A DNA stretch of 64,000 nt from Gammaproteobacteria bacterium. GTDB lineage: Bacteria; Pseudomonadota; Gammaproteobacteria; Steroidobacterales; Steroidobacteraceae. The position numbers were made by a program, and so were the translations under genes. The stretch covers positions 1 through 64,000 of the forward strand of contig JABCZO010000012.1 in NCBI GenBank assembly GCA_013289615.1. The letters run 5' to 3'. Positions 8,685 to 40,896 of the stretch are shown piece by piece (position 1 is the first letter of the stretch; the number at the start of each line of letters is the position of its first letter). The notes beneath the pieces were generated by a model. It was given only the letters and a program-made list of their open reading frames with translations, had not been told where the DNA came from and made no database searches.

Positions 8685-8685
8685 G

Positions 8686-17304: not shown

Positions 17305-17389
17305 AAATACCGCCGGCCGCGCGACCCAGGCGACACCGTACCTTGTGTTGTGGACGAGCAACGCCAGTGCCCGGATGCGCGATTTGCTA

Positions 17390-17601: not shown

Positions 17602-20600
17602 ATGACCACCGAAAGCAATCCAATCCTCAGACGCGCGGTGCGACTCGCGCTTCTGGCCGGAAGTGCCGCTGCGGTTGCGGTGCATCCCCCGGCCGCCAGC
17701 GCGCAAGCGGCGCCCGGTTCCACGGCCGAAAATACCGCTGAGTTGAACGAAGTCGTCGTCACCGGTTCGCGCATCGCCAGCCCAAGCCTGGACGCGATCA
17801 GCCCAGTGACCGCGGTAACCTCCGAAGAGTTCAAGGAGACCGGCGTCACCCGAGTCGAGGACCTGCTCAACAGCCTGCCACAGGTGGTCGCCGACCAGGG
17901 TTCCGGGCTGTCGATGACCGCCAACGGCACGGCCACCGTCAACCTGCGCGGCCTGGGCGTGCAACGCACGCTGGTGCTGGTCAACGGCCGCCGCCTGCAG
18001 GGCGGTGACCCGGGCGCGATCCAGGGCGCGACCCCGGCCTATGCCTCGGCCGCGGATATCAATCAGATCCCCGTGGCACTGATCGAGCGCGTCGATGTGC
18101 TCACCGGCGGCGCCTCCTCCACCTATGGCGCGGACGCGGTGGCGGGCGTCGTCAACTTTGTGATGAACGATCACTTCGAGGGCGTGCGCGTCGATGCCAA
18201 TATCGGCATCTATAACCACAACAACCACGAGGCCTGGAGCGATCCGCTGCTGACAGCCGACGGCAATCCGGCCGTCACCGGCTCGAACTGGGACGGGTCG
18301 AATAAGGACTTCACCATCATCATGGGGCACAACTTCGCCGATGGGGCCGGCAACTTCGAGGGCTATCTCGGTTACCGCACCGTCGCGGCAATCACCGCCA
18401 ACCATCGCGATCACTCCGCCTGCACGCTCAGCGACAGCACCGGCACGCAACCTTTTTTCTGCGGCGGCTCGAGCACCACCGCGCCGGCCGTGTTCCAAAA
18501 CGCGAGTACCGGGACAAAACTTCAGGTCACCGACGCCGGCACTTTGGTGGACCAATACAATCATTTCAACTACGGCGCGTCCCACTATCTGCAGCGCAAC
18601 GACGAGCGCTACACCGCGGGTTTCTTCGGCAAGTTGAAATTCAACGATCACGCGGAGGCCTATACCGAGTTCATGTTCATGGACGACCAGAGCACCGGCA
18701 ACTACGCGCCAGCGGGCTCATTCCTGGGAAGTGCCAGGGCCATCGATGCCAACTCGGGTCTTCCGGACGGTGCACTCTCGTACAACTGCGGCAGCGGCGG
18801 CTACGGCAATGCGGGTATGAACCCGTATATCACCGCTGCCGAGTTCCCGACACTCTGCCCCGAAACCGCCGGCGGTGCGCCCATTGCCTATACCAATAAG
18901 ACCAATACCGGCCAACTGTTCCCTTACCAGATGAGCGCCACCGGCGTCGGCCAGATCGCCATTGGCCGCCGCAACATCGAGGGCGGCCCGCGCGAGGACG
19001 AGTACACACACACCTCCTATCGCGGCGTGTTCGGCGTACGGGGCGAGATCGTCGAGGACTGGAACTACGACGCCTATGGGCTGTTTTCAACGACGCGCTC
19101 ATCCGATTACCACAACAACGATACCTCGACCCAGCACATTCAGAACGCGCTGCTGGCCGTGCCCGGCCCCGGCGGCACGCCGGTGTGCCAGGGCGGTCAG
19201 ACCGGCTGCGTGCCGTGGCCGATCTTCAACCCGGCGGTGGCGGTAAGCCCGGCTGCGCTGACCTACATCTCTGTGCCGGGCGTATTCCTCGCGTCCGAGC
19301 AGGAAGATATCGGCAGCGCCTACGTGTCCGGTGATCTGACCAAGAACGGCATCAAGACGCCGTGGGCGAACGACGGCCTGAAGGTCGTATTCGGTACCGA
19401 ATACCGCCGCGATGCGCTGACCTCCAGCCCCGACGAGGAGTATCAGAGCGGCGATCTGTCCGGCATCGGCTCGCCGGCGCCACCGGTGGCGGCCTCGCAG
19501 CGCGTGTGGGAACTGTTCACCGAGGCGCGCCTGCCGATCGTGCACGATGCACCGTTCGTGAAGACCTTCGATTTCGAGACCGGCTATCGCTATTCGAGCT
19601 ACAGCGAAGGCTACAACACCAATACCTTTAAATTCGGTCTCGAGTGGGCGCCGGTCAACGACCTGCGCGTGCGCGCCAGCTTCAACCGCGCGGTGCGCGC
19701 GCCAAATCTGCAGGAACTGTTTCAGCCCGATCACGTCGCCCTGGACGGCAGCAACGACCTGTGCAAAGTCGGCACGAAGCTTACTGCGGCTCAGTGCGCA
19801 CTGCTGGGACTGAGCCCGCAGTTGTACGGCGCCGGCGGCGCAGCGAAAGCGCCGTCAAGCCAGTACAACGGTCTGGTCGGTGGCAGCCCGGTGCTGAAGC
19901 CCGAAGTCGGTAAGACTTACGATGTCGGTCTGGTATTCACGCCGAGCTTCCTGCCGAAGTTCAGCGCGACGGTGGACTACACCGATATCAAGGTCACCGG
20001 CCTGGTGAATTCCTACGGTGCGAGCGTGATCGAACAAAACTGTGCCAACACCACCCTGGCTTACTGGTGCGATCTGATTCACCGTGATCCCGCTGGCACG
20101 CTATGGGCCAGTCCTAGTGGGTACGTCATTGACCCGCTGCTGAATGAAGGCGGGCTGGAATACCGGGGTCTCGACATCGGGCTGGCGTACACCATTGGAC
20201 TCGGGCCCTTCGGAAACCTGCGCACGCGCTTCGACGGCACCTGGCTCAAGGACCTGATCTACAGCCCCGGCGGGCCGGGCTCGAAGTCCTATGACTGCGC
20301 CGGCCGCTTTGGTCTGAGCTGTGACCCGATCACTCCGACCTGGCGCCACCGCATGACCCTGGACTGGGCTACGCCGGTCGCAGGCCTGTCGGGCGGCGCG
20401 GTATGGCGCTTTTTCGGCAAGGCACTCAATACGACCTATCTTCCGAATGAGCCTGACTACGCAAACAATAACCACCTGAATCCGGCAGCCGACGCGGAGA
20501 TCCCGAATTACAGTTACCTCGACCTGCATGTCTCCTATGTTTGGAACAAAGTCACGGTGCGCGCGGGCTGTAACAACGTGCTGGATAAGGATCCACCGAC

Positions 20601-20712
20601 GGTAAGCGGCGCGACCGGCGGCAATGACGTCTATTACGACAACAACACCTACGCCTCGGTGTATGACCTGGCAGGGCGGTTCTTGTTCATGAATGTCACG
20701 GTGGATTTCTAA
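17602..20712 (+). CDS. TonB-dependent receptor, large
   Basis: A 1036-aa outer-membrane receptor for energised uptake. It has a signal peptide (cleavage after PAASA, about 36), a TonB-box/plug start LNEVVVTGSRI (about 48), a plug domain to about 190 and a 22-strand-type barrel that ends in Phe (NVTVDF), the usual BAM signal. Many cysteine pairs lie in the extracellular loops (for example CTLSDSTG...FFCGG, VCQGGQTGC). No STN signalling domain is present. AGGGAGA 10 bases before the ATG at 17602 supports the start. The ligand is unknown; the TPR enzymes directly downstream suggest a shared pathway. A strong terminator follows. Confidence 0.93.
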   Translation: MTTESNPILRRAVRLALLAGSAAAVAVHPPAASAQAAPGSTAENTAELNEVVVTGSRIASPSLDAISPVTAVTSEEFKETGVTRVEDLLNSLPQVVADQGSGLSMTANGTATVNLRGLGVQRTLVLVNGRRLQGGDPGAIQGATPAYASAADINQIPVALIERVDVLTGGASSTYGADAVAGVVNFVMNDHFEGVRVDANIGIYNHNNHEAWSDPLLTADGNPAVTGSNWDGSNKDFTIIMGHNFADGAGNFEGYLGYRTVAAITANHRDHSACTLSDSTGTQPFFCGGSSTTAPAVFQNASTGTKLQVTDAGTLVDQYNHFNYGASHYLQRNDERYTAGFFGKLKFNDHAEAYTEFMFMDDQSTGNYAPAGSFLGSARAIDANSGLPDGALSYNCGSGGYGNAGMNPYITAAEFPTLCPETAGGAPIAYTNKTNTGQLFPYQMSATGVGQIAIGRRNIEGGPREDEYTHTSYRGVFGVRGEIVEDWNYDAYGLFSTTRSSDYHNNDTSTQHIQNALLAVPGPGGTPVCQGGQTGCVPWPIFNPAVAVSPAALTYISVPGVFLASEQEDIGSAYVSGDLTKNGIKTPWANDGLKVVFGTEYRRDALTSSPDEEYQSGDLSGIGSPAPPVAASQRVWELFTEARLPIVHDAPFVKTFDFETGYRYSSYSEGYNTNTFKFGLEWAPVNDLRVRASFNRAVRAPNLQELFQPDHVALDGSNDLCKVGTKLTAAQCALLGLSPQLYGAGGAAKAPSSQYNGLVGGSPVLKPEVGKTYDVGLVFTPSFLPKFSATVDYTDIKVTGLVNSYGASVIEQNCANTTLAYWCDLIHRDPAGTLWASPSGYVIDPLLNEGGLEYRGLDIGLAYTIGLGPFGNLRTRFDGTWLKDLIYSPGGPGSKSYDCAGRFGLSCDPITPTWRHRMTLDWATPVAGLSGGAVWRFFGKALNTTYLPNEPDYANNNHLNPAADAEIPNYSYLDLHVSYVWNKVTVRAGCNNVLDKDPPTVSGATGGNDVYYDNNTYASVYDLAGRFLFMNVTVDF

Positions 20713-20743
20713 AAAAGCGGCGCAAGTTCCTTTTGATAGACTC

Positions 20744-20774
20744 AAAGGCGGGCGTCGGCCCGCCTTTTTTTATT
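20744..20774 (+). terminator. Rho-independent terminator after the first TonB receptor
   Basis: A perfect 10-bp stem AAAGGCGGGC/GCCCGCCTTT (20744-20753 with 20758-20767), loop GTCG, followed by a run of T to 20771. It lies 31 bases past the receptor stop and separates it from the TPR genes. Confidence 0.92.
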
Positions 20775-20815
20775 CAGCATCCGCAAGATCGGGTGAGTGC
20801 TCGGGGTAGTACCGC

Positions 20816-23038
20816 ATGACATCCACAGTCGCCCGCGACCGCCTCGAAGTCGCCGTCACGCATCAGCGTGCCGGGCGCTTTCGCGAAGCCGTGGCCATCC
20901 TTCAAGAGCTGCTGCGCGCTGCGCCGAGAGATGCCGACCTCATGCAGCGTCTCGGCGTGGCGCTGGCACAGCTCGGGCAGCCGGCGCAGGGCGCGCCGCT
21001 CATGGCAGCCTCGCTGGAGCTGCAACCCGGACGGCCATCGGTGTTGCTGAATCTTGCTCGCGCGCTGCTCGCGCTGGGCCGCCCCGAGGCTGCCTTGCAG
21101 TGCTGCGATCGAGCGGTCGCGCTGGACAGCGCTGCCGCGGGTAATTATCGCGCGGGTGCATATCGACTGCGCGGGGCCGCGCTGACCATGCTCGGCCGCC
21201 GAGATGAAGCACTGGCGAATTTGGGCCAGGCGGTCCGGTTGGCGCCGAATGATGCGGAGGCACTCACCGAACTGGGCGTCGCGCTAGAGGCGGGCGAGCG
21301 CACCCACGATGCGCTGAACTGCTTCGAGCGCGCGCTCGAACTCGATCAGAACCAGTCGCTGGCGCTCCAGCATCTGGCCAAGCTCACTGCCGCGATGGGT
21401 GATTACACCCGCGCGCTTGGCTACCTCGATCGGGCGCTGGCGCTGCAGCCGCAGCTGGCCGCGCTGCATAGCAATCGGGGCAACTTCCTTACCCGCCTCG
21501 ACCGCTTAGGTGAGGCCCTCGCGAGCTATGCCACCGCCCTGGCGATCGATCCCGCCAATCTCGACACCCTGCACAACCGCGCGATGACGTTGACGCTGCT
21601 CGGACGTCACGCCGAGGCGCTGCGCGACTTCGATGAACTGCTGGCGCATGGCGGTGAGCGCCCTTCACACCTGCTGGCGCGCGGAACGGCATTGCTCGAG
21701 CTCGGCCGGCCCGCCGAGGCGGCAGAGCCGCTCGAGCGCGCAGCAGCCCTGCTGCCGCAGGATCGCGAGGTGCATGCGCAGCACGGCAGCGCGCTGCTGC
21801 GCCTTGCGCGCTACGCGGAAGCGCTCGAGAGTTTCGATCGTGCCCTCGGCATTGGGCCCGAGCGAGCGCAGATACTAAACAATCGCGGCGTCGCGCTCGA
21901 GGCCCTGGGCCGGCCGCAGGCTGCGCTCCAGGACTTCATTCGCGCCGCGGTGATCGACGGTACCGCAGCGGCCACCCACGTCAACATCGGGGTACTGTCG
22001 GCGCGGCTTGGGAACGATGCACAGGCGGCAGCGAGCTTCGATCGGGCGCTGTCCATCGACCGCGATGACCCCGCGGCGCGGCTCGAGCTGGCGTTTCTGT
22101 ATCTCGCGCAGGGCGATTTGCGCCGCGGCTGGCCGCTGTACGAAGCGCGCTTTCGCGTGCCCGCACTCGCGGTCCCGCCGCGCGAGTTCGGCGTGCCGCG
22201 CTGGACCGGGGAGGCGCCGATCGCCGGCAAGATCCTGCTGGTGCACGCCGAACAGGGATTGGGCGATACGATTCAGTTCTGCCGCTACCTGCCGCTGCTG
22301 GCCGAGCGGGGTGCAACGGTGATGTTCGAGGTCATGGCGCAGCTCAAGGCCCTGATGGGCACTTTGCCGGGGGCGATCCAGCTGATCGGCCGCGGCGAGC
22401 TGCTCCCCCGATGCGACTATCATTGTCCACTCATGAGCCTGCCGCTGGCCTTCGGCACCCAGGTTGCCAGCATTCCGCAGCAGGTGCCCTATCTGGCTGC
22501 GGATCCGGTGCGCACCACCGACTGGGCCACTCGCCTGCAGCAGCTGCCGGGTTTGCGCGTCGGGCTGGCCTGGCAGGGCAACGCCCAGGTCGAGCGCTTG
22601 ACCTGGGCACGCGGGCGCTCGCCGCCGCTTGCGGTATTCGCACCGCTCACTGAAATCCCGGGCCTCAGTCTGGTGTCGCTGCAGCAAGGCGAGGGACTGC
22701 AGCAACTGCGGGCAGCGCCGTTTCGCGATCGCATCTTTTTCCCCGGCGAGGAAGCCGGCGCGGATGCATTTCTCGACACCGCTGCGATCATGGCGTCGCT
22801 CGATCTCATCATCAGCTCGGATACCTCGGTCGCGCACCTGGCGGCCGCCCTGGCGCGGCCAACCTGGGTGGCGCTGAGCGCCGCGCCCGATTGGCGCTGG
22901 CTGCGCGAGCGCAGCGACAGCCCGTGGTATCCCACGATGCGCCTGTTCCGTCAGCCGGGACGCAGCAATCGCTGGGACGCGCTGGTGGCCGCGCTGGCCG
23001 GGTCTCTCGAGGCGCTCATCGCTGAGCGCGCGCACTAG
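20816..23038 (+). CDS. TPR protein with C-terminal GT9-like glycosyltransferase domain
   Basis: A 740-aa protein without a signal peptide. Residues 1 to about 460 are a long array of TPR repeats (recurring A-x-x-x-F-x-x-A-L and N-x-x-x-x-L). From about 470 a domain like ADP-heptose transferases and other GT9/GT-B enzymes begins with LLVHAEQGLGDTIQFCRYLP and ends with DLIISSDTSVAHLAAAL, the donor-site motif. The layout recalls TPR-linked O-GlcNAc transferases, though the catalytic family differs. It probably transfers a sugar to a protein or peptide held by the TPRs; donor and target are unknown. The sulfotransferase gene starts 20 bases downstream. Confidence 0.85.
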   Translation: MTSTVARDRLEVAVTHQRAGRFREAVAILQELLRAAPRDADLMQRLGVALAQLGQPAQGAPLMAASLELQPGRPSVLLNLARALLALGRPEAALQCCDRAVALDSAAAGNYRAGAYRLRGAALTMLGRRDEALANLGQAVRLAPNDAEALTELGVALEAGERTHDALNCFERALELDQNQSLALQHLAKLTAAMGDYTRALGYLDRALALQPQLAALHSNRGNFLTRLDRLGEALASYATALAIDPANLDTLHNRAMTLTLLGRHAEALRDFDELLAHGGERPSHLLARGTALLELGRPAEAAEPLERAAALLPQDREVHAQHGSALLRLARYAEALESFDRALGIGPERAQILNNRGVALEALGRPQAALQDFIRAAVIDGTAAATHVNIGVLSARLGNDAQAAASFDRALSIDRDDPAARLELAFLYLAQGDLRRGWPLYEARFRVPALAVPPREFGVPRWTGEAPIAGKILLVHAEQGLGDTIQFCRYLPLLAERGATVMFEVMAQLKALMGTLPGAIQLIGRGELLPRCDYHCPLMSLPLAFGTQVASIPQQVPYLAADPVRTTDWATRLQQLPGLRVGLAWQGNAQVERLTWARGRSPPLAVFAPLTEIPGLSLVSLQQGEGLQQLRAAPFRDRIFFPGEEAGADAFLDTAAIMASLDLIISSDTSVAHLAAALARPTWVALSAAPDWRWLRERSDSPWYPTMRLFRQPGRSNRWDALVAALAGSLEALIAERAH

Positions 23039-23058
23039 CCAGGCGCTGGTTGCATTCG

Positions 23059-24888
23059 ATGTCGGTGCGCGATGATCCCGAAGAGCTGCTGCAGCGGGCA
23101 CGAGCCGACCTCGCCGGCGAGCGGCTGGCCGCGGCCGAGGCCAAGTGCCTTGAAGTGCTCAGTGCCCACTATCATCACGCTGGCGCACTCGGGGTGCTGG
23201 GCCAGGTGCTGTACGCCCGCGGCCAGCATGAGGAGGCGGTGCGGATCTTCAATGCACTCACCTTGATGCAACCGAGCGTCCAAGAGCATTGGCAAAACCT
23301 GGGCACCGCGCTGCGGCCGACGCGGCGTCACGATCAGGCGATCGCTGCATTCGATCGCGCGCTGCGGCTCGCACCGCCGTCGGCCGCGCTGCTGTACAAC
23401 CTCGGCGTGCTGCAGATGGAGCGCTGCAATTATGACGCTGCCTACCTTGCATTGCGCGACGCCGTTGGCCTGGCGCCCAATGATGCCACCATGCGCTGGG
23501 CCTTGGCCCAATGTTGCTACGAGCGGACAAAGAACGACGAAGCTCTGGCAACACTCGAAAATTGGCAGGAGCTGCAGGGGCTGACACCCCAGATCACCGC
23601 GCAGATTGCGGGCTTGCTCGTTATGATGGGGGAGACGCGCCGCGCCGCTTCCGCCATCGAGCAGCTGGTGGCCAGTCCGCCGCTCAAGGGGCGCGCGCCT
23701 GTCGCGCTGGCGACCATCCTGGAGCGCCTGCATCGGCTGGACGAGGCCCGCGGCATCCTGCAGCGTTTGGAGCAGCATGAGCGCGATCCCCAAATCCAGA
23801 TCGACTTGCTGCAGATATCGGCGCAGCTGGCCGCGCGGGCCGGCCAGCACCAGCTTGCACTGACTCATCTGACCGCAGCCTTGCCGCAGTATCAGCCGTA
23901 TGCGCGCAAGTGCCACGTATTGTTTCCCATGGCGAAAGCGCTCGATGCGCTGGGCCGCTACGACGAGGCCTACGCGACCGCGGAGGAGGCGCACCGCTCC
24001 CAAGTTGCCTTTATCGGCGCTGCGATGGGCAAAGGAGCTGACACGCCGTCTTGGATGTCAAGGCGCATCGCCCGCGGTTGCAACCCGGCTGACGTCGCCC
24101 TCTGGGATGAGGGACCGCCGGTCGAAGAGTCCCCTATTTTCATCGTCGGATTCCCCCGGTCGGGCACGACGCTGCTCGAGCAGGTGCTGGATGCGCACCC
24201 ACTGCTGCAGTCGATGGACGAGCAGCCGTTCATGATGCAGGCCTGCGCCGCACTGTGCGAAGGTCCGGTGAGCTACCCCAATGAACTCGGCAAATTGGAC
24301 GTCAGCGCCCTCGATGAGATCCGGGGGCGCTACTGGGCGAGTGTGCGTCGCAAGATCGACCTGTCGCCGGCCAAGCGCCTGGTGGACAAGGGCCCGATGA
24401 ATATGACGGTGCTGCCACTGATCCGGCGGCTGTTTCCGCGCGCGCGCATCGTGCTAACGATCCGCCATCCCTGCGACGTCCTGCTGAGCTGCTATTTCCA
24501 GCAGTTCCGATCGACCGACCTGGCACTGCTGTGCCGCGACCTGGCGACGCTGGCCCGCGCTTACGACAGCGCCTTCAGGTATTGGTATTCACAGTGGCCC
24601 CTGCTGCGTCCCTCGAGCTACGAGCTGTTCTACGAAAGGCTGACGGCGGACTTTCCGGCGCAGGTGCGCCAACTGGCCGAGTTCCTGCAGTTGCCCTGGC
24701 ACGACGCCATGCTGTCGCCGGCGGAGCGCGCCCGCGCCAAGGGATTCATCAGCACCCCCAGTTACGCGCAGGTCACCGAGCCGGTCAACACTCGCTCAGT
24801 GGGTCGCTGGAAACGCTATGAGCGCCACTTCGAGCCGGTGTTGCCAGGCTTGAGGCCGTGGATCGAGCGCTGGGGATACAGTCTTTAG
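23059..24888 (+). CDS. TPR protein with C-terminal sulfotransferase domain
   Basis: A 609-aa cytosolic protein. Residues 1 to about 340 are TPR repeats. The C-terminal half is a Sulfotransfer_3-type domain with the PAPS 5'-phosphosulfate loop IVGFPRSGTTLLEQ near residue 360 and the 3'-phosphate motif TIRHPCDVLLSCYF near 470. It should transfer sulfate from PAPS to a hydroxyl or amine, plausibly on a peptide such as tyrosine. The ATG at 23059 is preferred to the TTG nine bases earlier. It forms an operon with the TPR-GT9 gene and overlaps the convergent small gene by four bases. Confidence 0.9.
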   Translation: MSVRDDPEELLQRARADLAGERLAAAEAKCLEVLSAHYHHAGALGVLGQVLYARGQHEEAVRIFNALTLMQPSVQEHWQNLGTALRPTRRHDQAIAAFDRALRLAPPSAALLYNLGVLQMERCNYDAAYLALRDAVGLAPNDATMRWALAQCCYERTKNDEALATLENWQELQGLTPQITAQIAGLLVMMGETRRAASAIEQLVASPPLKGRAPVALATILERLHRLDEARGILQRLEQHERDPQIQIDLLQISAQLAARAGQHQLALTHLTAALPQYQPYARKCHVLFPMAKALDALGRYDEAYATAEEAHRSQVAFIGAAMGKGADTPSWMSRRIARGCNPADVALWDEGPPVEESPIFIVGFPRSGTTLLEQVLDAHPLLQSMDEQPFMMQACAALCEGPVSYPNELGKLDVSALDEIRGRYWASVRRKIDLSPAKRLVDKGPMNMTVLPLIRRLFPRARIVLTIRHPCDVLLSCYFQQFRSTDLALLCRDLATLARAYDSAFRYWYSQWPLLRPSSYELFYERLTADFPAQVRQLAEFLQLPWHDAMLSPAERARAKGFISTPSYAQVTEPVNTRSVGRWKRYERHFEPVLPGLRPWIERWGYSL

Positions 24889-26644: not shown

Positions 26645-26734
26645 GGAAACCTCGCTATCGATCAGGTCACAATCCACGGTTGAAAAGGCCCCAGTCTTAC
26701 GCGCGGCGACGGTGCTTCGTGTTACGGTAGGCCG

Positions 26735-27772: not shown

Positions 27773-27807
27773 AGCGCGGCGCGAACGCCCGCGGCACCAG
27801 CCGCTAG

Positions 27808-29649
27808 TCAGTTCGGCGCCGCCTCGGGCAAGGGCAACGCATCGAAGGCGATCGTCAGCCGCGGCTGCGCGCCGTGAATCGGCGTCGTCCCGTGCCACAT
27901 GTACGAGGGGAACAGCACCAGTCGGCCGGGCAGCGGCTGCAGGTACTTCTCCGCAGTCGCGCCCGGCACCGAAAAACGCGTCTCGCCAAATTTGAGCCAG
28001 CCTGAACGCAGCGCCGTGTCCTGCACCTCGTCCGGCACGTCCACGTAGTACGCCGAGCTGATCCAGCCCTGGGGATGCAGATGATTGACGTGGAAGCCCT
28101 CACGCTGCAGCTGCACTGACCAGGCGCCGGTGATCACCGCGCCGCCCACGTTGCGCGCTGACAGCGGATGCCCGGGCGCCTGGCCGAGCGCGCGCAGATA
28201 GTCGGCGATCGGCGCCTGGAAGGCCTGCAGTACCGCGCCAATCGCAGCGTCGCTCTCGGCGATGAGATTGCGCGTGGTCTGACTGCCGTGCCGCAGGCTC
28301 TGATCCAGAGGATGGGTCGCGAACCGGTGGCGCGCCGTCAGCGCCGTGCGCAGCGCGGCGTTCAGCTCGGCTATCGACGACCAGCCCGGCGGGGGCTCGA
28401 GCATGTAGCTGCGCACCAGCCGATCGTAATCGTAGAGCTCGCGGTAGTGCTCGCGTCCGAGCAGCCGTGCCGCGGTGGCCTCGTAGGCGATCCAGCTCTG
28501 GACCAGCGGTTCGCGGGCCCGCCGCGCCGCGAGGTAAGGTAGTGCATCCTGCGCGCGGCCGCGGGCCAGCAGGATTGCCACCAGCGTTTCGATGATCTCT
28601 GCGTCGTCGGGCATCGCCGATGCGGCGAGAAAGGCTTCGTGTTCGGCCTCTGCCAGGCGCCCAGTCTCCTGCAGCAACTGGGCTAGCAGCGCGTGCAGCG
28701 GCGGCGCGGGTCCGTGAGCGGTCAGGGCTTGCCGCAGCTGCCGCTCGGCCTCATCGAACCGGCCGGCGCCTTTGAAAACGCGGGCCAACTCGGTCTGTAG
28801 CGGCAGATTGCCGGGCTGTGCGGCAGCGATGGCCGCAAAGTCGCGCGCAAAGGCCGGATCGGCGCGCATGTAACGCAGGCGCGCGAGATTGACCTGGGCC
28901 TCGATATCGGTCGGGCGCAGCGCCACGGCGCCGACGAACTCGCACTCGGCCTCCTCCAGGCGGTAGAGCAGGCTGAGCGCGCGGCCGCGATTGAAGGCGA
29001 GCTCGAAATTGCGCGCGCCCAGGGCGCGTGCGCGGTCGAGCACCGCCAGCGCCTCCTCGGCACGCTCCAGGCGCGACAGCAGCGCTCCAAGATTCTGGTG
29101 CGCAAAGGCCTGGCGCTCATCCAGCGCAAGTGCGCGCCGATAGGCGGCCTCTGCCTCAACAATCTTGTGCTGGCGGTCGAGCACGAAGGCCAGCAGCGAG
29201 CAGGCGTCGGCATCCTCCGGCCGCTGCTGCAGCAGCGTGCGGGCCTCGGCTTCGGCGGCAGCCGGCCGACCCAGCTCCTCGAGTATCACTACCAGGGCAC
29301 GGCGCGCCGCGTGCTCCATAGGAGCGCGCTCGAGCAGCTGACGATAGGTCTGCGCGGCCCCGGCCGCACGTCCGCGCCGGTGCAACAACTGGCCGAGATT
29401 GAGCTGGAACTTCAGGTTGGCGGGCTCGATCTGCAGGCTCTGCCGCACCAAGCGCTCGCCGGCAACGGCATCGCCGGACTGCTCGCAGATCAGTCCGAGC
29501 AGGTGCAGCGCCGTTGCTTGCTGCGGGGTCTGCGCCAGCAGCGCGCGGCAGGCGCGCTCGGCTTCGGCGAGGCGCCCGTTCTGCATCAGATCGGCGATGG
29601 CGATGAGCCGCGACTGCAGCGCGGCGCCGCCAGATAAGTTAATAAACAT
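27808..29649 (-). CDS. TPR protein with C-terminal 2OG-Fe(II) oxygenase domain
   Basis: A 613-aa protein with about eleven TPR-like repeats in residues 1-430 and a C-terminal '2OG-Fe(II)_Oxy_5'-type domain. The domain shows HVNHLHPQGWISSAYYVDVP and, some 60 residues on, SYMWHGTTPI...PRLTIAFD. These supply the histidine ligands and the arginine that binds 2-oxoglutarate. It likely hydroxylates a peptide side chain. The ATG at 29649 (MFINLSGG) is chosen because the repeats begin soon after; GTG codons at 29712 or 29706, with AGAAGG upstream, would add about 20 residues. Confidence 0.85.
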   Translation of the reverse strand: MFINLSGGAALQSRLIAIADLMQNGRLAEAERACRALLAQTPQQATALHLLGLICEQSGDAVAGERLVRQSLQIEPANLKFQLNLGQLLHRRGRAAGAAQTYRQLLERAPMEHAARRALVVILEELGRPAAAEAEARTLLQQRPEDADACSLLAFVLDRQHKIVEAEAAYRRALALDERQAFAHQNLGALLSRLERAEEALAVLDRARALGARNFELAFNRGRALSLLYRLEEAECEFVGAVALRPTDIEAQVNLARLRYMRADPAFARDFAAIAAAQPGNLPLQTELARVFKGAGRFDEAERQLRQALTAHGPAPPLHALLAQLLQETGRLAEAEHEAFLAASAMPDDAEIIETLVAILLARGRAQDALPYLAARRAREPLVQSWIAYEATAARLLGREHYRELYDYDRLVRSYMLEPPPGWSSIAELNAALRTALTARHRFATHPLDQSLRHGSQTTRNLIAESDAAIGAVLQAFQAPIADYLRALGQAPGHPLSARNVGGAVITGAWSVQLQREGFHVNHLHPQGWISSAYYVDVPDEVQDTALRSGWLKFGETRFSVPGATAEKYLQPLPGRLVLFPSYMWHGTTPIHGAQPRLTIAFDALPLPEAAPN

Positions 29650-30148
29650 TAATTTTTGCTGTAGCGAATAACAAACGATTGTGCTCCGAGTTGAATATAT
29701 TGGCACCTGCACCCTTCTGGCGCGGTCATTGCGGGGTTTTTAAGCAACAGCCACTGGTCACTGCATTTTGGTCAAGAGCGGTGCACTTATTATTTAACCT
29801 TATGTTTTTATTATAAATTTGTGCGACGCAAAGAGGCTCCAGCCGACGGTTCCGGAAGCCGTTTTCCGGCGTACTTGCGGGCGCTTTCGACGCCTATGCA
29901 TGGATTTCGGACTGTACGCATAGCTGTTGCCCCAGCACGACACATTGTTGCGCGACGCAGTTTGTTCGGAATATCCTCGCATCACTGTTAGGGGATGCAG
30001 CCTCGGTCTCGTTGCTTTGCACTCATGTTCAGCTCGTACAGAACGGGCTCGTCAGCTGCACTGTTATACAACTTGTTGTTGCACGTATCGCGCGGGTCAC
30101 ATGGATTCAAAAGTGCATCGCAGCGCGATCTGCAGGGAGAAAACAGAA
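29650..30148. other. Long divergent gap before the second TonB receptor
   Basis: About 500 bases between the TPR-2OG oxygenase and the receptor. It is clearly more AT-rich than its surroundings in 29770-29820, where TATAAT occurs on the minus strand (29815-29810), a possible -10. No convincing -35, operator or RNA was identified. A small near-palindrome ACAAC-TT-GTTGT is at 30068-30079. Confidence 0.5.
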
Positions 30149-32911
30149 ATGACCGAGTCTTCTTGGAGTAGCTCTCCATCTCAAGTATGCCTGCCGATCA
30201 CGGCCGCGGCGCACCGCATGCTGCAAATCGGCGCGGTCGCAGTCATGGCGGCGGCGGCCTCATTCGCCGGTGCCGCGGAAACGGCAGAATCCGAGCAGCA
30301 GCTGCAGGAAGTCGTCGTGACGGGCTCCCTGATCGCGCGGCCTAACGCCGAAACGGCGGAAGCCATCACGATTGTCTCGACCGACGACCTCAGAAACCAG
30401 GGCGTCACAACGGTGGAGCAGGCGCTGCAGATGATCAGCGCAAATAATAACGGTAACGGATACCAGACTGCCTCCGCGGTCACGACCTTCGAGGGCGGCG
30501 GCTCATACGCGAGCCTGCGTGGCCTGGGCGCAAACAAGACCCTGGTGCTGCTGGATGGCCAGCGCCTTGCCAACAACGTGGTGCTCGGGGCCGGCATCGA
30601 TATGGATGTCATCCCGTTCGCGGCCATCGACCACATCGAGGTACTGCGCGAAGGCGCCTCGTCACTGTACGGGACGGACGCCATTGCCGGTGTCATCAAC
30701 TTCATCACCAAGAAGAACTACGACAAGGGCGAACTGGATATCACTGCAACCAAACCGCAGGATGGCGGCGGCGGCGGGACCGGCGCGAACGTCACCTTTG
30801 GACATGGCAATGTTCAGACTGACGGCTATAACTTCCTGGTCACGGGAAGTTACACCTATGGCGCGGAATTGAGGGCCACTCAAAGGCCATTCTCCAGCAC
30901 CGGATTTGACCCGACCAGAGGACTGGCGAACACCAATTTCCCCGGATCAGTGCCGGGAAGTTATCTCGACTCCAATAACAACCTGTACCAGGTCGGCTAC
31001 CCGGGCTGCGCGGGTAATCCGTATTTGACCCGGTTTTACGGCGATTGCTCTTACACCTACTCCTCCGCCGTGGACCTGATTCCGAAGACCAACCAGGAGT
31101 CGGGATTGGTCTCGTTTACCAAGGCGCTGCCGGCAGATAACACACTGGCTGTCCAATATTTCTATGCCCGCTCCCAGGACACCAATTGGGGTGGTCCGAT
31201 GGAGTACGCCGAAAATATGAACCCCGGCACTCCCTTTTTCCCGACGGCCGGCAACTCAACCTGCACCTTCACCTGCAGCGGCCCACCTAATCTGGCCGCC
31301 CCGGTCTTGGCGATCTGGACCGACCCGTACAACAGTCGCGGCTTTCAGTACACCAATGTGGAACAAAGGCTTCTGCTCACGTTTGAGGGTAAGAACGCGG
31401 GATGGGACTACTCGACAAACTTCAACTACAGCACCAATCACAACCGGTCTGATGCGGCAACCGGCTGGCCCTCGCTGGGGATCCTCGCGCCCGGTAACGT
31501 GCTCAGCCCTTTGATCAACCCGTTCAGTGCGACGCAGACGGCGGCCGGAGAAGCCTTGATCCAGAGCGCTTATATGAGCGGCGAAGTCGCCGTCGGGACG
31601 TACAGACAGTGGAGCTTCAACGGTCATGCCGGTCACGCACTGGGCGACGCCTTTGGCGCGGGTCGACCCGCAGCGTTTGCCGTTGGCTTCGATGTTCGAG
31701 GCGAGCATATTGGCTACACCACCACGCCGCTGGCAGCGCCGATAGCCACGGCGACTGGTTTCCTGCCCACCCACACCCTGGGATCTCGAACCGAGCAGGC
31801 GGCCTATGCCGAATTGAACGTCCCGATAACCAAGGACTTTGAGTTTACGGTATCGGATCGTCAGGACAGGTATAGCGATTTCGGCAACACCAACAATGGA
31901 AAGATCTCGTTTCGCTTTCAGCCATTCCAGATGCTGACCCTGCGAGCGGCTGCCTCCACTGGCTTCAGGGCGCCATCGCTGTTTGAGTTGTACCGACCCC
32001 CAACCTTCGGCGCGACCGGCGAGATGAACTCCTACCCGGGGTGCGCAACGGGGGCTTATACGGTGATATTCACCCAATCGAACTGTACTTCGCAGGGCCT
32101 GGCGCTGTTCGGCGGAAACACCACCCTGAAGCCGGAGCAGTCGGATAATTTTGATGTCGGTTTTATCGTCGAACCCATTCAAAACCTCGGCATTACGCTC
32201 GATTGGTACCGAATCACTCTCAAGAATGAGATTCAGACGATTCCGGGTACTGCGATCTATGGAAATCCCACTACGTTCGCAAACTACTACGTGTTGAACA
32301 ATGCCGGGACGCTGACTCAGGCACCCTCGCTCGCTATCGACTGCGTCCCGTACACATCGCCCACCTGTGGATACATTCTGCAGAACAGTCAGAATACCGG
32401 TGGCATCCAGACCGACGGATTTGACCTGAGTGTCCAATATCTCATCCGGACGCCCATCGGCAAATTCCACACCAGTTTGGAAGGCACATTGGTTACAAAA
32501 TACCTCCTGCAGCAGTATCTGGATGGTCCCGAGCTCAATCGGGACGGACAATTCGTTCAGGGGAATCAACCGATCATTCGCTGGTCGCATCAGCTGAACG
32601 CTGATTGGAGCAACGGGCCGTTTGGCGCCGGTCTCAGCAACCACTTCGTGTCTTCGTATGGCGATTACACGCTGATGGCTAATGGTCAGGTGCATACCGT
32701 CGGCGTCTATTCGATCTGGGGTATCTACGCCTCCTGGAAGCCGATTGAGACTCTGACGACACTGGTCGGCGTCTCCAATCTTTTCGATACCGATCCGCCG
32801 TTCTCAAACCAGGGCGGCGGCACCAACACGAACTGGCAGGCCGGCTTCAACCCGCTGTTCTCGGATCCGACTGGTCGGGCCTTTTACGTCAGGCTGAAAT
32901 ACGAGTTCTGA
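30149..32911 (+). CDS. TonB-dependent receptor
   Basis: A 920-aa outer-membrane receptor. Signal peptide to about residue 39 (ASFAGA), plug start QEVVVTGSLIARP (about 50), plug to about 180 and a barrel that ends in LKYEF with the terminal Phe needed for insertion. Cysteine-containing loops are visible (STCTFTCSG). AGGGAGA 8 bases before the ATG at 30149 fixes the start. It is a different subgroup from the receptor at 17602 but shares the same plug start. The ligand is unknown. It is followed by a strong terminator. Confidence 0.93.
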   Translation: MTESSWSSSPSQVCLPITAAAHRMLQIGAVAVMAAAASFAGAAETAESEQQLQEVVVTGSLIARPNAETAEAITIVSTDDLRNQGVTTVEQALQMISANNNGNGYQTASAVTTFEGGGSYASLRGLGANKTLVLLDGQRLANNVVLGAGIDMDVIPFAAIDHIEVLREGASSLYGTDAIAGVINFITKKNYDKGELDITATKPQDGGGGGTGANVTFGHGNVQTDGYNFLVTGSYTYGAELRATQRPFSSTGFDPTRGLANTNFPGSVPGSYLDSNNNLYQVGYPGCAGNPYLTRFYGDCSYTYSSAVDLIPKTNQESGLVSFTKALPADNTLAVQYFYARSQDTNWGGPMEYAENMNPGTPFFPTAGNSTCTFTCSGPPNLAAPVLAIWTDPYNSRGFQYTNVEQRLLLTFEGKNAGWDYSTNFNYSTNHNRSDAATGWPSLGILAPGNVLSPLINPFSATQTAAGEALIQSAYMSGEVAVGTYRQWSFNGHAGHALGDAFGAGRPAAFAVGFDVRGEHIGYTTTPLAAPIATATGFLPTHTLGSRTEQAAYAELNVPITKDFEFTVSDRQDRYSDFGNTNNGKISFRFQPFQMLTLRAAASTGFRAPSLFELYRPPTFGATGEMNSYPGCATGAYTVIFTQSNCTSQGLALFGGNTTLKPEQSDNFDVGFIVEPIQNLGITLDWYRITLKNEIQTIPGTAIYGNPTTFANYYVLNNAGTLTQAPSLAIDCVPYTSPTCGYILQNSQNTGGIQTDGFDLSVQYLIRTPIGKFHTSLEGTLVTKYLLQQYLDGPELNRDGQFVQGNQPIIRWSHQLNADWSNGPFGAGLSNHFVSSYGDYTLMANGQVHTVGVYSIWGIYASWKPIETLTTLVGVSNLFDTDPPFSNQGGGTNTNWQAGFNPLFSDPTGRAFYVRLKYEF

Positions 32912-32940
32912 TCCTCGTCCTGGCGGTTCAACCTCTTAAC

Positions 32941-32968
32941 ATCGGCCCCTTCGGGGGCCGATTTTTTT
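32941..32968 (+). terminator. Rho-independent terminator with UUCG loop
   Basis: A perfect 9-bp stem ATCGGCCCC/GGGGCCGAT (32941-32949 with 32954-32962), loop TTCG, then seven T. It lies 30 bases after the second TonB receptor and just reaches the stop of the convergent amidase gene. Confidence 0.93.
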
Positions 32969-34559
32969 ACGGTAGGCGCGGGCCGCCGGGACTTGCGGCG
33001 GCGGAGGCCGGCGTCTCGAGCGTCGGCAGGTACTGCGCAGAGGTCAGCGGCCCGGTGAGCAGGCTGAAGGCGTAGCCGCAGGCCAGCAGCAGCTGCTCGG
33101 ACCAGGCCGGGCCGATGAACGACAGGCCGACCGGCAGCCCCGCTACCTCCCCCATCGGCACCGACAGATGCGGATAGCCGGCGACCGCCGCCAGGGTGGT
33201 GTATGAATCGCCGCCGCGATCGCCGTAGGCCTGATCGACGCGCCACGCCGCGCTGGTGGTCGGTGCTACCAGCAGATCGAGCCGATCGTGTTGCAGCATC
33301 TGGTCCAGACCCTGCGCACCCGCCAGTCGCTTCGACGTCTCCAGGGCGCCTCGATACGCGGCGTCATCCAGACCGGCGGTCTGCTGGGCGCTGATGAAGA
33401 TATCCTGGCCGAAGTACTGCAGCTCGTAGGGAGAGGCGCGGTTGTAGTCGATCAGCTGCGCCAGGTCGCGCGTCTTGACCGCCGCGGGAGCGGCCGCCAG
33501 ATAGCCATCGATACCGGCCTTGAATTCGCTCAGCAGCACCGTGAGTTCAGCCGCCTCGAGCGGCGCGCTGTCGGGCGCGGACACCTCGACCAGCGTGGCA
33601 CCAGCCGCGCGCAGCCGTCGCAGCGCGCGTTCATAGACCTGGTCCATTTCGGGGTGGCTGCCAGGCTTGAAGCGCAGCACGCCGATGCGCTTGTGGCGCA
33701 GGCCTTGCGGATCCAGGCCCGCGGCGTAGTCGGTCGCCTCACACGGGCCGCCGGCCGGCTCGCACTCGTGGGCGCCGTGACTGACCAGCGCGCTCAGCAG
33801 GATCGCGACGTCGGCCACCGTGCGCCCCATCGGGCCGGCGGTGTCCTGGCTGTGCGCGATCGGCACGATGCCGCGCTGCGACAGCAACCCCAGTGTCGGC
33901 TTCAGCCCGATGATGCCGGTCATCGACGCCGGGCAGGTGATCGAACCGTCGGTCTCCGAACCGATGCTCGCCGCTGCCATGCCGGCGGCCACCGCGACTG
34001 CGCTGCCGGAACTCGATCCGCAGGCCGTGCGGTCGAGCACATACGGATTTCGGGTCAGCCCGCCAACGGCGCTCCAGCCGCTGGTCGCATGCGTGGAGCG
34101 AAAATTCGCCCATTCGCTCAGGTTGGTCTTGCCGAGGATGATCGCTCCGGCGGCGCGCAGCGCCGCCGCCACGGGCGCATCGGCGGTCGCGAAATTATCG
34201 ACCAGCGCCAGCGAGCCCACGGTGGTCGGCATCCGGTCCGCCGATTCGATGTTGTCCTTCAGCAGCACCGGAATGCCGTGCAACGGGCCGCGCGCCCCGT
34301 GCTCGCGCCGCTCCTGGTCCAGGGCGTGCGCCTGCGTCAGCGCATCCGGATTGATCGAAATGACGGCGTGCAGCGCCGGCCCTTGGCTGTTCAGCGCATT
34401 GATGCGCTGCAGATAGTGCTGCACCAAGGTTTCGGCCGTGAATTGACCGGACCCCATCTTGGCCTGCAATTCCGCTATTGAGGGCTCTGGATTCACGTTT
34501 GCCGACCAGACCGGCAGTCCGATGACGAGCGCGAACGCGACACACAGTGCACGGTGCAT
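32967..34559 (-). CDS. Exported amidase (amidase signature family)
   Basis: A 530-aa amidase with a signal peptide (about 1-19). The catalytic Lys is in GIPVLLKDNIE, the cis-Ser in CGSSSGSAVAVAAG and the nucleophile Ser in GSETDGSITCPAS, as in the amidase signature family. It hydrolyses an amide to acid plus ammonia or amine; secretion suggests a peptide or cell-wall-derived substrate. The start at 34559 is divergent from the second retropepsin-like gene (127-base gap). It lies between the two TonB-linked groups and may serve the same pathway. Confidence 0.9.
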   Translation of the reverse strand: MHRALCVAFALVIGLPVWSANVNPEPSIAELQAKMGSGQFTAETLVQHYLQRINALNSQGPALHAVISINPDALTQAHALDQERREHGARGPLHGIPVLLKDNIESADRMPTTVGSLALVDNFATADAPVAAALRAAGAIILGKTNLSEWANFRSTHATSGWSAVGGLTRNPYVLDRTACGSSSGSAVAVAAGMAAASIGSETDGSITCPASMTGIIGLKPTLGLLSQRGIVPIAHSQDTAGPMGRTVADVAILLSALVSHGAHECEPAGGPCEATDYAAGLDPQGLRHKRIGVLRFKPGSHPEMDQVYERALRRLRAAGATLVEVSAPDSAPLEAAELTVLLSEFKAGIDGYLAAAPAAVKTRDLAQLIDYNRASPYELQYFGQDIFISAQQTAGLDDAAYRGALETSKRLAGAQGLDQMLQHDRLDLLVAPTTSAAWRVDQAYGDRGGDSYTTLAAVAGYPHLSVPMGEVAGLPVGLSFIGPAWSEQLLLACGYAFSLLTGPLTSAQYLPTLETPASAAASPGGPRLP

Positions 34560-34686
34560 AGGACACTTATGTCATAGGCCCGCGTCGCGGGCGTCGGCGC
34601 GGATCATAACCCGACTGGCAAGTTGTCTCGGCAGGGCAAAGCGCGCACGATAACCTAGGCACTACTGGGCTGCGTGAGGGCATGCC

Positions 34687-35694
34687 ATGTCCGGGGCGGT
34701 TCGAACCTGGCTCGCGAAACTCGTGCCACTGCTGCTCATCGGTGGCAGCTTCCAGCCCGTATCCCTTGCCGGGCCCACGACCGGATCGCTGACCGCTGGT
34801 GTCGATGCCGAGCAGACCGGCCCTCTGTATGCGATACCCACGCTGCGCGACCGGGTCGGCCGCATCGTCGCGGCGGTGATGATCAACGGTCGCGGGCCAT
34901 TCCGTTTCATGCTCGATACCGGCTCCAATCGAACCGTACTGGCGCAATCGGTGCTCGCCAAACTGAGCCTGGCCGCCGATCCGGATGCCTCGATATCGGT
35001 CGTCGGCGTCACCGGATCCCAGATCGCCGCCAGCGTGCATATCGACAGCCTGGACGCCGGCGACATGCATTTTCGCGACGTCGATCTGGCCGTGTTGTCC
35101 GGACCGGTGCTGTACGGCCTGGACGGCATTCTCGGCATGGAAGGCTTCGATGGCCTCAAGGTATCGGCGGACTTTGTCCGCAATTTAGTCTCGATCTCCA
35201 AGTCGCGCGGTCGACCAGCAGCGGCGCAGTATGCAGCCATCCCGGTGCGGTTCCTGTCCGACCGCCTGCTGATGATCGATGCTCTTGTCGGCCGCCTGCA
35301 CGTCAAGGCGATCATCGACACCGGCAGCCAGCGCACGCTGGCCAATGGCGCGCTACTCGCGGCGCTCAGTGGCGGGCGGCGCGACGTTCCGCCGACCTCG
35401 CCGGCCAGCGTGATCGACGCCACGCAGTCCCTGCAGCCGGGTCTGACCGGTCGCGTACCGGCCATCCGGCTGGGGGAGACGACCATCCAGAACCTGGACG
35501 TCACGTTCGGCGATTTTCAGATATTCAGGACCTGGGGACTGGAAAACGAACCGGCGCTGCTGATCGGTATGGACGCGCTCGGTACGCTGGCGGATCTCGA
35601 CATCGACTATCAGCGCAAGGAGGTGGACATGCTGTCGCGTACGGCGCCGCATCCGCTGCTGGAGATAATGGGGCTTTCACCCACCAGCTGGTGA
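34687..35694 (+). CDS. Secreted retropepsin-like aspartic protease with two DTG motifs (second copy)
   Basis: A 335-aa exported protein (signal peptide to about 29) clearly paralogous to the one at 26735. It has the same order: a proline-rich lead, GRGPFRFMLDTGSN (Asp77), DGILGMEGF, then AIIDTGSQRT (Asp211) and LLIGMDALG. Identity between the two is moderate, so the duplication is not recent. ATG at 34687. A small plug-like lipoprotein gene follows 123 bases on with its own candidate promoter. Confidence 0.82.
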   Translation: MSGAVRTWLAKLVPLLLIGGSFQPVSLAGPTTGSLTAGVDAEQTGPLYAIPTLRDRVGRIVAAVMINGRGPFRFMLDTGSNRTVLAQSVLAKLSLAADPDASISVVGVTGSQIAASVHIDSLDAGDMHFRDVDLAVLSGPVLYGLDGILGMEGFDGLKVSADFVRNLVSISKSRGRPAAAQYAAIPVRFLSDRLLMIDALVGRLHVKAIIDTGSQRTLANGALLAALSGGRRDVPPTSPASVIDATQSLQPGLTGRVPAIRLGETTIQNLDVTFGDFQIFRTWGLENEPALLIGMDALGTLADLDIDYQRKEVDMLSRTAPHPLLEIMGLSPTSW

Positions 35695-35763
35695 TCGACA
35701 GTTGCGCGCACCAGCGCCGTCAACCTCGACAGCGCGGAATCTCGCTCTCCTACGCCGCAGGCG

Positions 35764-35769
35764 TATAAT
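35764..35769 (+). promoter_or_regulatory. Candidate -10 (TATAAT) for the plug-like lipoprotein
   Basis: A perfect TATAAT hexamer 48 bases before the ATG at 35818. The -35 region (about 35741-35746) is weak. Confidence 0.4.
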
Positions 35770-35817
35770 CATCAACTGGTGGGGCCGATCGGGCGCAGGA
35801 GTTTCCGGGAGGTTGCT

Positions 35818-36081
35818 ATGTCTACGCGTTGTGCTGGGACGTCAATACTACTGGTGCTATGCACGCTGACGGCGTGTACCGCCACGCCACCGCGGATGGG
35901 GACCACCTCCGCGTCGCGCGTCTACGTCACCGGTTCACTCATTGCGGCACCCGTCGACAGTGTGACCGGCCAACCAGCGCCGAACCCTGCGCTCCAGGTG
36001 GTGACCCAAGACGAGATCATGGTTACGGGCCGGACGAACCTTGGCACCGCACTGCACCTGCTGGTGCCGAGTATTCAATAG
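35818..36081 (+). CDS. Lipoprotein resembling the N-terminus of a TonB-receptor plug
   Basis: An 87-aa protein with a lipobox ending in Cys20 (LTAC). The mature part contains RVYVTGSLIAAP (about 34-45) and then LQVVTQDEIMVTGRTNLGTALHLLVPS. This parallels the start of TonB-receptor plugs, for example EVVVTGSLIARP in the receptor at 30149 followed by TIVSTDDL...TTVEQALQMIS. No barrel follows: the gene ends normally at 36081. GGGAGG 5 bases before the ATG is a good ribosome site, so it looks like a real short gene, not a truncated receptor. Function unknown. Confidence 0.7.
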   Translation: MSTRCAGTSILLVLCTLTACTATPPRMGTTSASRVYVTGSLIAAPVDSVTGQPAPNPALQVVTQDEIMVTGRTNLGTALHLLVPSIQ

Positions 36082-40888: not shown

Positions 40889-40896
40889 GCGGCGCC

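Follow-up and report, generated by a model that had tools for sequence, protein, structure and literature searches.

We consider that a 13.9-kb segment of a Steroidobacteraceae genome, module A, is on balance probably a receptor-dedicated cytoplasmic protein-modification cassette, which would act on the TonB-dependent receptor (TonB1) encoded within it. The segment lies in the window, the whole 64,000-nucleotide stretch of contig JABCZO010000012.1 that was analysed. Genes were called with a script trained on window genes, which performed poorly on AT-rich Pseudoalteromonas loci. The first-pass annotation had placed four TPR-fused enzymes (glycosyltransferase, sulfotransferase, Asp/Asn hydroxylase and 2OG oxygenase) between two TonB receptors, with two retropepsin-like proteins and an amidase interspersed; domain searches recovered all of these. 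Its gene list overlooked two members of the unit, the small protein sm and the upstream haloperoxidase-like gene. The features are as follows:

15949–29887 (no strand): module A, missing at the syntenic region of the same-genus genome G004
16141–17304, plus strand: vanadium-haloperoxidase-like gene (PDB 4cit, 8.7e-16; PF01569 weak, below cut-off), product probably secreted as judged by eye
17602–20712, plus strand: TonB1, TonB-dependent receptor (PF07715 Plug and PF00593 barrel; signal peptide by eye)
20816–23038, plus strand: TPR-glycosyltransferase, GT9-like and FlmG-like (TPR 3e-50; without a signal peptide by eye)
23059–24888, plus strand: TPR-sulfotransferase, TPR-ST (PF13469, 2.9e-32)
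24885–25343, minus strand: sm, small secreted-looking protein (apparent signal peptide; its gene follows that of AspH, the two overlapping by 4 bp), a candidate alternative substrate or periplasmic partner
25340–26677, minus strand: TPR-Asp/Asn beta-hydroxylase, AspH (PF05118, 3.6e-41)
26735–27772, plus strand: RVP1, retropepsin-like protein (PF13650 in two stretches; by eye, two DTG motifs and a signal peptide)
27808–29712, minus strand: TPR-2OG-Fe(II) oxygenase (PF13759, 4.3e-22)
30218–32911, plus strand: TonB2 receptor, module B (PF07715 and PF00593), of another subfamily than TonB1
32967–34559, minus strand: amidase, module B (PF01425, 1.4e-96; PRK08137, 3.4e-211; signal peptide by eye)
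34687–35694, plus strand: RVP2, retropepsin-like protein, module B (G004 copy 88%)
35896–36081, plus strand: 61-aa ORF, by eye similar to the N-terminus of a TonB receptor (G004 copy 61% identical)

The borders of the module were defined by comparison with G004. In blastn, the window is collinear with the G004 region (L230) up to position 15948 and again from 29888, and these two borders are 302 bp apart in L230. Within module A are the four TPR enzymes together with TonB1, the haloperoxidase-like gene, sm and a retropepsin. The TonB2–amidase–retropepsin group, module B, is a separate neighbour that G004 retains without TPR enzymes, with the TonB2-type receptor in tandem and an amidase 92% identical to that of the window. 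The idea of one single island was therefore not borne out: a single 18.5-kb operon or island was rejected, as was membership of the amidase and RVP2 in the TPR module. Insertion of module A in the window genome and its loss in G004 are equally possible; there was no tRNA at the module, no common border repeat of at least 10 bp and no integrase among its scanned genes. Elsewhere, orthologs of the haloperoxidase-like gene (65–74%) are module members in three genomes (L052, L228 and L229) and RVP1 orthologs are present in two of these (L052 and L229), while the TPR-2OG oxygenase falls outside the set common to the window and the three.

The catalytic halves were then assigned from solved structures and conserved residues. 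For the sulfotransferase, the closest structures are protein-tyrosine sulfotransferases (PDB 8w5z, 7.5e-20), and the PRSGTT loop and a glutamate of the GEET region, which we take to be the PAPS-binding loop and the catalytic Glu region of TPST, both align. The catalytic half is homologous to protein-tyrosine sulfotransferase, with tyrosine sulfation of a protein as a candidate activity. AspH matches Asp/Asn beta-hydroxylase structures (best 9.2e-25), and its residues H349, G351, H394 and R404, presumably the iron ligands (HxG...H) and the 2OG-binding arginine, are invariant in 15/15 aligned sequences. For the TPR arrays, the matching structures are those of designed TPR proteins and OGT. The GT9 match of the glycosyltransferase (20.4 bits) is just below the Pfam cut-off of 22, and no PDB match was found at E ≤ 0.1 for its GT half, nor any for a 344-aa neighbour at sphingomonad loci. 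Judged by eye from their N-termini, the TPR enzymes appear cytoplasmic.

Linkage between AspH and TonB receptors recurs well beyond the window. Among loci with full flanks, AspH has a TonB receptor no more than 8 kb away in 32/39 named loci (counted after dropping 8 duplicates) and 28/38 order-level loci. The expected share, from the receptor density of 30 genomes, is about 21%, and chance co-location is excluded by binomial probabilities of 1.2e-15 (named) and 8.5e-12 (order-level). AspH loci without TonB within 8 kb number 18/69 in the named set and 15/59 in the order-level set, the latter coming from families f4, f9, f10, f11 and f16 and two of f1. All four enzyme classes occur together in 6 of the 100 TonB-bearing loci of the AspH sets, subsets being common. 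TonB1 falls in one clade with the receptors of other AspH loci; eight TonB1-like receptors in retrieved regions (L235–L242) have neither AspH nor TPR-ST neighbours. The proposal that TPR enzymes and TonB receptors belong together is supported, the association recurring across classes, and the feared outcome, TPR enzymes mostly in unrelated, receptor-free neighbourhoods, is not what the examined loci contain. Some of the enzymes are also joined to each other, with an AspH–ST fusion at 5 loci (one confirmed by Pfam) and a TPR-GT–TPR-ST fusion in Methylovirgula.

Pairing was next followed within the genus. Leaving out that of the window, 22 TPR-STs were found in 20 regions of four genomes (G000, G001, G002 and G004), and in 16 cases a full-length receptor is at most two genes away, on the same strand in 15. 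The remainder either adjoin a receptor piece (2), have a receptor four genes off (1) or sit at contig ends (3). Over 16 pairs, TPR-ST distances correlate with receptor distances at r = 0.925, and at 0.944 when taken within genomes, with permutation p ≤ 0.0004. These pairs are 15 from the genus plus that of the window, since 6/22 TPR-STs have no full receptor within three genes and the second ST of L045 was dropped. In one clade of 12 receptors, the TPR half gave r = 0.935 and the catalytic half 0.848; with the window pair left out, the TPR-half correlation was 0.854 over 15 pairs. Receptors and sulfotransferases co-vary as pairs.

The best clue to the substrate comes from gene neighbourhoods of TPR-ST relatives on plasmids. 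The survey covered 28/41 records and gave 23 annotated regions, 17 of which have a surface-protein gene within three annotated genes of the TPR-ST: 6 autotransporter, 7 TonB, 1 porin, 1 flagellin and 2 type I secreted. The other 6/23 have no such gene nearby. By hand count, surface-protein genes make up 20/133 genes within three of a TPR-ST vs 1/113 further away (Fisher 2.5e-5). The surface-protein idea was formed after 7 regions; TonB and autotransporter were named beforehand, and the porin, flagellin and type I categories were added as each turned up. In the 16 annotated regions examined after the idea, 12 fit, 8 of them via TonB or autotransporter. A Comamonas region also carries cysC (PAPS supply).

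The glycosyltransferase points in a similar direction. It aligns over most of its length with a TPR-glycosyltransferase from a Phenylobacterium flagellin locus (L285; BLASTP 2e-30, 26% over 631 columns) that adjoins three flagellins, FlaF and FlbT. We infer that this Phenylobacterium protein is FlmG, a likeness of locus and size rather than of alignment with the FlmG sequence itself. No flagellin was present among the scanned proteins of the window's island. In Caulobacter, FlmG is reported to bind flagellin through its TPR half and to modify it in the cytoplasm (eLife 2020 e60488). FlmG resembles the window enzymes in its N-terminal TPR and C-terminal GT-B-type transferase, its cytoplasmic location and its surface-exported substrate; the island differs in having a TonB receptor as the neighbour and in adding a sulfotransferase, an Asp/Asn hydroxylase and a 2OG oxygenase.

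In the mechanism that we favour, the TPR solenoid of each enzyme would grip the unfolded TonB1 precursor before it leaves by the Sec route. TonB1 would receive hydroxyls from the Asp/Asn hydroxylase and the 2OG oxygenase, while the sulfotransferase would O-sulfate and the glycosyltransferase O-glycosylate side chains, perhaps including the new hydroxyls. The modified receptor would then be exported and folded so that its outer loops carry the modifications. Outside the cytoplasm, roles as accessories or additional targets would fall to sm, the haloperoxidase-like protein and the retropepsin. The domains, conserved motifs and linkage, paired variation of receptor and sulfotransferase, fusions and exchange of the partner for other surface proteins are observed; we infer which protein is modified, in what order and at which sites, and to what end, which may be an altered ligand choice or the hiding of the receptor from phages and bacteriocins.

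Receptor sequences were also searched for target signatures. Acidic-tyrosine sites showed no clear excess in receptors beside TPR enzymes, with 2.5 in ST pairs vs 2.2 expected by shuffling and 2.3 vs 2.4 in AspH-island receptors. The EGF-type ASPH consensus was found in 1/18 ST-pair and 1/48 AspH-island receptors, and the EGF-like motif Cx[D/N]x4[F/Y]xC of the window receptor is unconserved (2/45 aligned receptors). Candidate residues separate receptors with AspH (45) from those without (8), namely N154 vs D, N1013 vs A/S/G/Q, and Y345. This split was set aside because the two receptor sets are largely separate lineages.

Hydroxylases, sulfotransferases, glycosyltransferases and haloperoxidases are typical tailoring enzymes, and the island holds all of these types. 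The enzymes might tailor a secreted RiPP or peptide-like metallophore that the TonB receptors take up again, its precursor encoded elsewhere or by an overlooked small ORF, a reading that we think rather unlikely. Four sphingomonad loci share a 23-aa Cys/Pro-rich ORF, but the commonest small-ORF family is found at just 18/101 loci and is of secreted or lipoprotein type by eye, 0/6 proteins of more than 1100 aa are NRPS-like by eye, and the TPR-ST family also stands beside autotransporters, a porin and a flagellin. Table 2 of PMC10040529 lists a lasso-peptide B2 protein, PqqD, asparagine synthase, two sulfotransferases, an aspartyl beta-hydroxylase and a glycosyltransferase under cluster numbers 1738–1748; on our reading of this near-consecutive numbering, such enzymes may serve a RiPP there.

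It is less probable still that the enzymes act on a different exported product of the module, chiefly sm, with the receptor only a functional partner. At many loci AspH and sm share a strand, with a 4-bp overlap or almost no gap between them, and in many sm directly follows AspH where the receptor is further away; sm also occurs in the same island of genomes without an AspH match (L212–L214, L216 and L217), and on a Polymorphobacter plasmid it lies between TonB and AspH. However, G000, G001 and G002, from which most of the examined genus ST–TonB pairs come, contain no sm other than that of the window, and some sm genes are far from TPR enzymes (L215, L220, L221, L223 and L225).

The first-pass annotation had left two routes, modification of the receptor or processing of an imported ligand, and receptor modification is favoured because the ST relatives adjoin autotransporters, a porin, a flagellin and type I proteins rather than importers of such a ligand. 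Action on an imported peptide or glycopeptide is very improbable: an amidase and retropepsins are nearby, a membrane dipeptidase family occurs in 4 loci and an ABC-transporter-ATPase-like protein by eye in three (L058, L176 and L182; the sole such family among neighbour families in at least 3 loci), but the amidase is part of module B, which G004 has without any TPR enzymes, there would be little sense in sulfating and glycosylating a nutrient, and the TPR-ST family pairs with autotransporters.

Receptor modification before export has parallels in other systems. The autotransporter heptosyltransferases AAH/TibC and the adhesin glycosyltransferase HMW1C are dedicated, cytoplasmic and encoded beside the surface protein that they modify before export; we know of no TPR fusion or sulfation among them. 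ASPH and TPST, the closest solved catalytic relatives of the AspH and ST halves, are both protein modifiers, and OGT is the natural relative of the TPR arrays; we take the solved ASPH, TPST1/2 and OGT relatives to be human proteins. ASPH and TPST work inside the lumen of the ER/Golgi, whereas the island enzymes appear cytosolic. RaxST of Xanthomonas is likewise a bacterial tyrosine sulfotransferase with an exported target and a gene by secretion genes, but it accompanies a type I secretion system, and the abstract of PMC4216712 mentions neither a TonB receptor nor AspH.

Among the open-access matches listed (subscription literature being outside the scope), no title or abstract concerned sulfation or Asp/Asn hydroxylation of outer-membrane receptors, and as far as we know neither has been described. 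More tentatively, and with somewhat less than even confidence, TPR-fused sulfotransferases, hydroxylases and glycosyltransferases may make up a single broad class of cytoplasmic enzymes, each dedicated to a substrate among the surface proteins (TonB receptors, autotransporters, porins, flagellins and type I adhesins). Outer-membrane proteins would then be sulfated and hydroxylated before export, and enzyme swapping beside TonB receptors would be chemical masking that changes ligand, phage or bacteriocin recognition. If receptor modification is correct, the annotated but unexplained 'tetratricopeptide repeat-containing sulfotransferase' family would gain a function; up to 37 matches to it occur in one genome, TPR-only matches included. 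Work on uptake or on phages would then need to consider receptor modification as a variable, and the TPR halves would let the target of an enzyme be predicted from its neighbour gene. Related enzymes beside other surface proteins hint at an unrecognised chemical marking of bacterial surfaces.

Tailoring enzymes are also encoded beside TonB receptors in the TonB receptor/tryptophan halogenase/SapC/cupin clusters, which have other chemistry and, to our knowledge, no TPR fusions. The SapC family was also seen in 4 of the loci here.

Domain scans recovered every domain named in the first-pass annotation at 17602-36081, where four TPR enzymes between two TonB receptors had been read as one possible island. 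Matches to the TPR arrays include designed TPR proteins and OGT. With N-termini judged by eye, signal peptides are apparent in the receptors, the small protein, the retropepsins and the amidase, and absent from the four TPR enzymes.

Genes in and beside the island (coordinates, strand, product)
16141-17304, +, vanadium-haloperoxidase-like (PDB 4cit, 8.7e-16)
17602-20712, +, receptor TonB1
20816-23038, +, TPR-glycosyltransferase (GT)
23059-24888, +, TPR-sulfotransferase (ST)
24885-25343, -, small protein
25340-26677, -, TPR-Asp/Asn hydroxylase (AspH)
26735-27772, +, retropepsin RVP1
27808-29712, -, TPR-2OG oxygenase
30218-32911, +, receptor TonB2
32967-34559, -, amidase
34687-35694, +, retropepsin RVP2

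Elsewhere in the window, a bufferin-type operon (38783-41193, -) encoding DUF2282, BufB maturase (NF050167, 6.3e-116), DUF2063 and DoxX proteins adjoins FeoB, and glycogen-metabolism-type genes occupy 7260-14614 (starch/glycogen synthase, GlgC-type NTP transferase, DUF3417 phosphorylase).

In a same-genus relative (G004, region L230) the DNA runs collinear with the window as far as 15948 and resumes at 29888, the two borders lying 302 bp apart there vs 13.9 kb in the window. The intervening stretch from haloperoxidase to 2OG oxygenase (module A) is missing from the syntenic site, and TonB2 (82%, in tandem), the amidase (92%) and RVP2 (88%) are kept. Module A therefore comes and goes as a block, having been either gained in the window lineage or lost in G004. 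Neither border repeats nor a tRNA or integrase turned up for module A, and its third-position GC (0.805, 8 genes) is close to that of the flanks (0.83, 36 genes). The closest relatives of module A that we found lie in other genera (L052, L228, L229), where haloperoxidase, TonB1, ST, GT, small protein and AspH are 51-74% identical in shuffled order and orientation; L052 and L229 also have RVP1 (the L228 stretch stops inside AspH), and the 2OG oxygenase is outside the set common to all three. TonB1- and TonB2-type receptors co-occur also in L214, L216 and L217. Where the window has one TonB2, L230 packs four TonB receptor genes into ~14 kb, including two similar TonB2 copies that match the one in the window at 81% and 80%.

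Of the 296 genomes of the order, 72 carry AspH homologs (E ≤ 1e-15). Linkage was measured in 60 fetched order-level regions (AspH not called in one) and in the best 80 of 588 candidate loci (AspH not called in three; eight duplicate the order-level set), the latter named set spanning Steroidobacteraceae, Sphingomonas, Phenylobacterium, Caulobacter, Hyphomonadaceae, Nitrospirillum, Duganella, Paucibacter, Roseateles and others. At 44/59 order-level and 51/69 named loci, AspH has a TonB receptor no more than 8 kb away. Where at least 7.2 kb was available on both sides, the counts were 28/38 (binomial 8.5e-12) and 32/39 (1.2e-15), against ~21% expected for a random gene (from 1460 plug domains counted in 30 genomes whose rounded sizes total ~122 Mb). 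The association proposed in the first-pass annotation thus recurs across genomes for AspH and TonB receptors. Receptor-less order-level loci belong to families f4, f9, f10, f11 and f16, with two more from f1. By in-house profiles, the 100 TonB-bearing loci include 34 with AspH alone, 32 with AspH, ST and 2OG oxygenase, and six with all four classes. In a quick tree with 23/83 inner branches open, 46/48 AspH-locus receptors cluster in a single supported group of 49, which also includes the window's TonB1 and TonB2 and one unpaired receptor; the other 16 ST-paired receptors lie elsewhere. Neither AspH nor TPR-ST was found near eight TonB1-like receptors.

Many neighbour families at these loci were named by eye or left unnamed, a few dozen of the 290 unlabelled neighbours clustered being Pfam-scanned. 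A family of 344-aa proteins encoded next to TonB receptors, chiefly in sphingomonads (L172:8831-9865, -; relatives in 12 loci), had no Pfam or PDB match and is perhaps another modifying enzyme. A conserved 23-aa Cys/Pro-rich ORF near AspH and TonB in sphingomonad loci L169, L170, L178 and L186 (e.g. L170:8181-8252, -) could be a peptide gene. With one representative scanned per family, ExbB- and TonB-type genes were seen near receptor and AspH in Burkholderiales (L168, L171, L176, L182, L191).

Sulfotransferases are likewise paired with receptors. In the window's draft genome (83% complete), there are 8 ST-domain matches, and each of the six places listed is ~5 kb or less from one of the 27 plug domains. 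In 20 regions drawn from four genomes, a full receptor stands no more than two genes from 16/22 TPR-STs; the remaining six lie at contig ends, beside receptor fragments, or four genes from a receptor. Both TonB-ST and ST-TonB orders occur. Receptor and ST distance matrices agree (r 0.925; 0.944 within genomes; 0.91 without the window), and the pairs therefore stay joined through duplication. Within one clade of 12 receptors, agreement with the receptor is at least as close for the TPR half (0.935) as for the catalytic half (0.848).

An ST relative was present in 41 plasmid records, some of them close relatives and so counted more than once; 28 regions were examined, 23 of them annotated, with an incomplete gene table. 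In 17/23 annotated regions, the ST has a surface-protein gene no more than three annotated genes away.

Surface-protein genes near plasmid TPR-STs
Autotransporter: Pacificitalea, Kluyvera, Enterobacter, two Azospirillum, Thalassospira
TonB receptor: Novosphingobium pentaromativorans, N. capsulatum, Komagataeibacter, Asticcacaulis, three Pseudoalteromonas
Porin: Cereibacter
Flagellin: Paroceanicella
Cadherin-domain adhesin with type I secretion and cysC: Comamonas
Calcium-binding protein, putative cargo of the adjacent type I secretion genes: Sulfitobacter

No such gene was found within three annotated genes in the remaining 6/23 (L251, L252, L268, L272, L274, L275). The surface-protein idea was set down after seven regions; 12/16 annotated regions examined later fit, eight of them through the two kinds already specified, TonB and autotransporter. 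Counted by hand, surface-protein genes make up 20/133 genes within three of the ST vs 1/113 further out (Fisher 2.5e-5). Among the five unannotated regions, TonB adjoins the ST in L256 and L257, a receptor fragment lies just upstream in L263, a receptor is four genes away in L270, and no receptor was found near the ST in L271. An island-type TPR-GT homolog lies within two genes of the TPR-ST in 5/6 autotransporter loci (L250, L254, L255, L262, L267), and one Methylovirgula plasmid protein (L268:2935-6726) carries TPR, GT9-like, TPR and sulfotransferase domains on a single polypeptide.

An exported surface protein is the common denominator of the ST loci and therefore the likeliest substrate of the adjacent TPR enzymes. 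The small protein, whose gene overlaps that of AspH by 4 bp, is a serious alternative substrate for AspH; searches of the receptors for sulfation and ASPH-type motifs were negative. For modification of an exported surface protein, the experimentally tested precedent is FlmG, which binds flagellin by its TPR half and modifies it in the cytoplasm (PMC7591256). A Phenylobacterium TPR-GT homologous to the island GT (2e-30) adjoins three flagellins, FlaF and FlbT, and is probably FlmG, judging by its genomic setting and length (598 vs 596 residues).

The nearest solved relatives of ST and AspH are a protein-tyrosine sulfotransferase (7.5e-20) and an Asp/Asn beta-hydroxylase (9.2e-25). AspH-ST fusions occur at five loci (L071, Pfam-checked; L083, L091, L092, L093), with L265 a sixth candidate, and further 2OG oxygenases and a methyltransferase are among the neighbours. 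Together these suggest a hydroxylate-then-cap chemistry, in which side chains would be hydroxylated first and then capped. The fusions, at L071:733-2562 and in L083, L091, L092 and L093, adjoin AspH, TPR-ST and TonB genes.

Among the open-access papers listed in literature searches, none described a TPR enzyme-TonB receptor association; an earlier prediction may exist, for instance in comparative-genomics work on peptide-modifying dioxygenases. In the Comamonas endophytica plasmid (L259), the TPR-ST is flanked on one side by the cadherin-domain adhesin and on the other by a type I secretion set that includes cysC (PAPS supply), and this locus offers a clean test case for adhesin sulfation.
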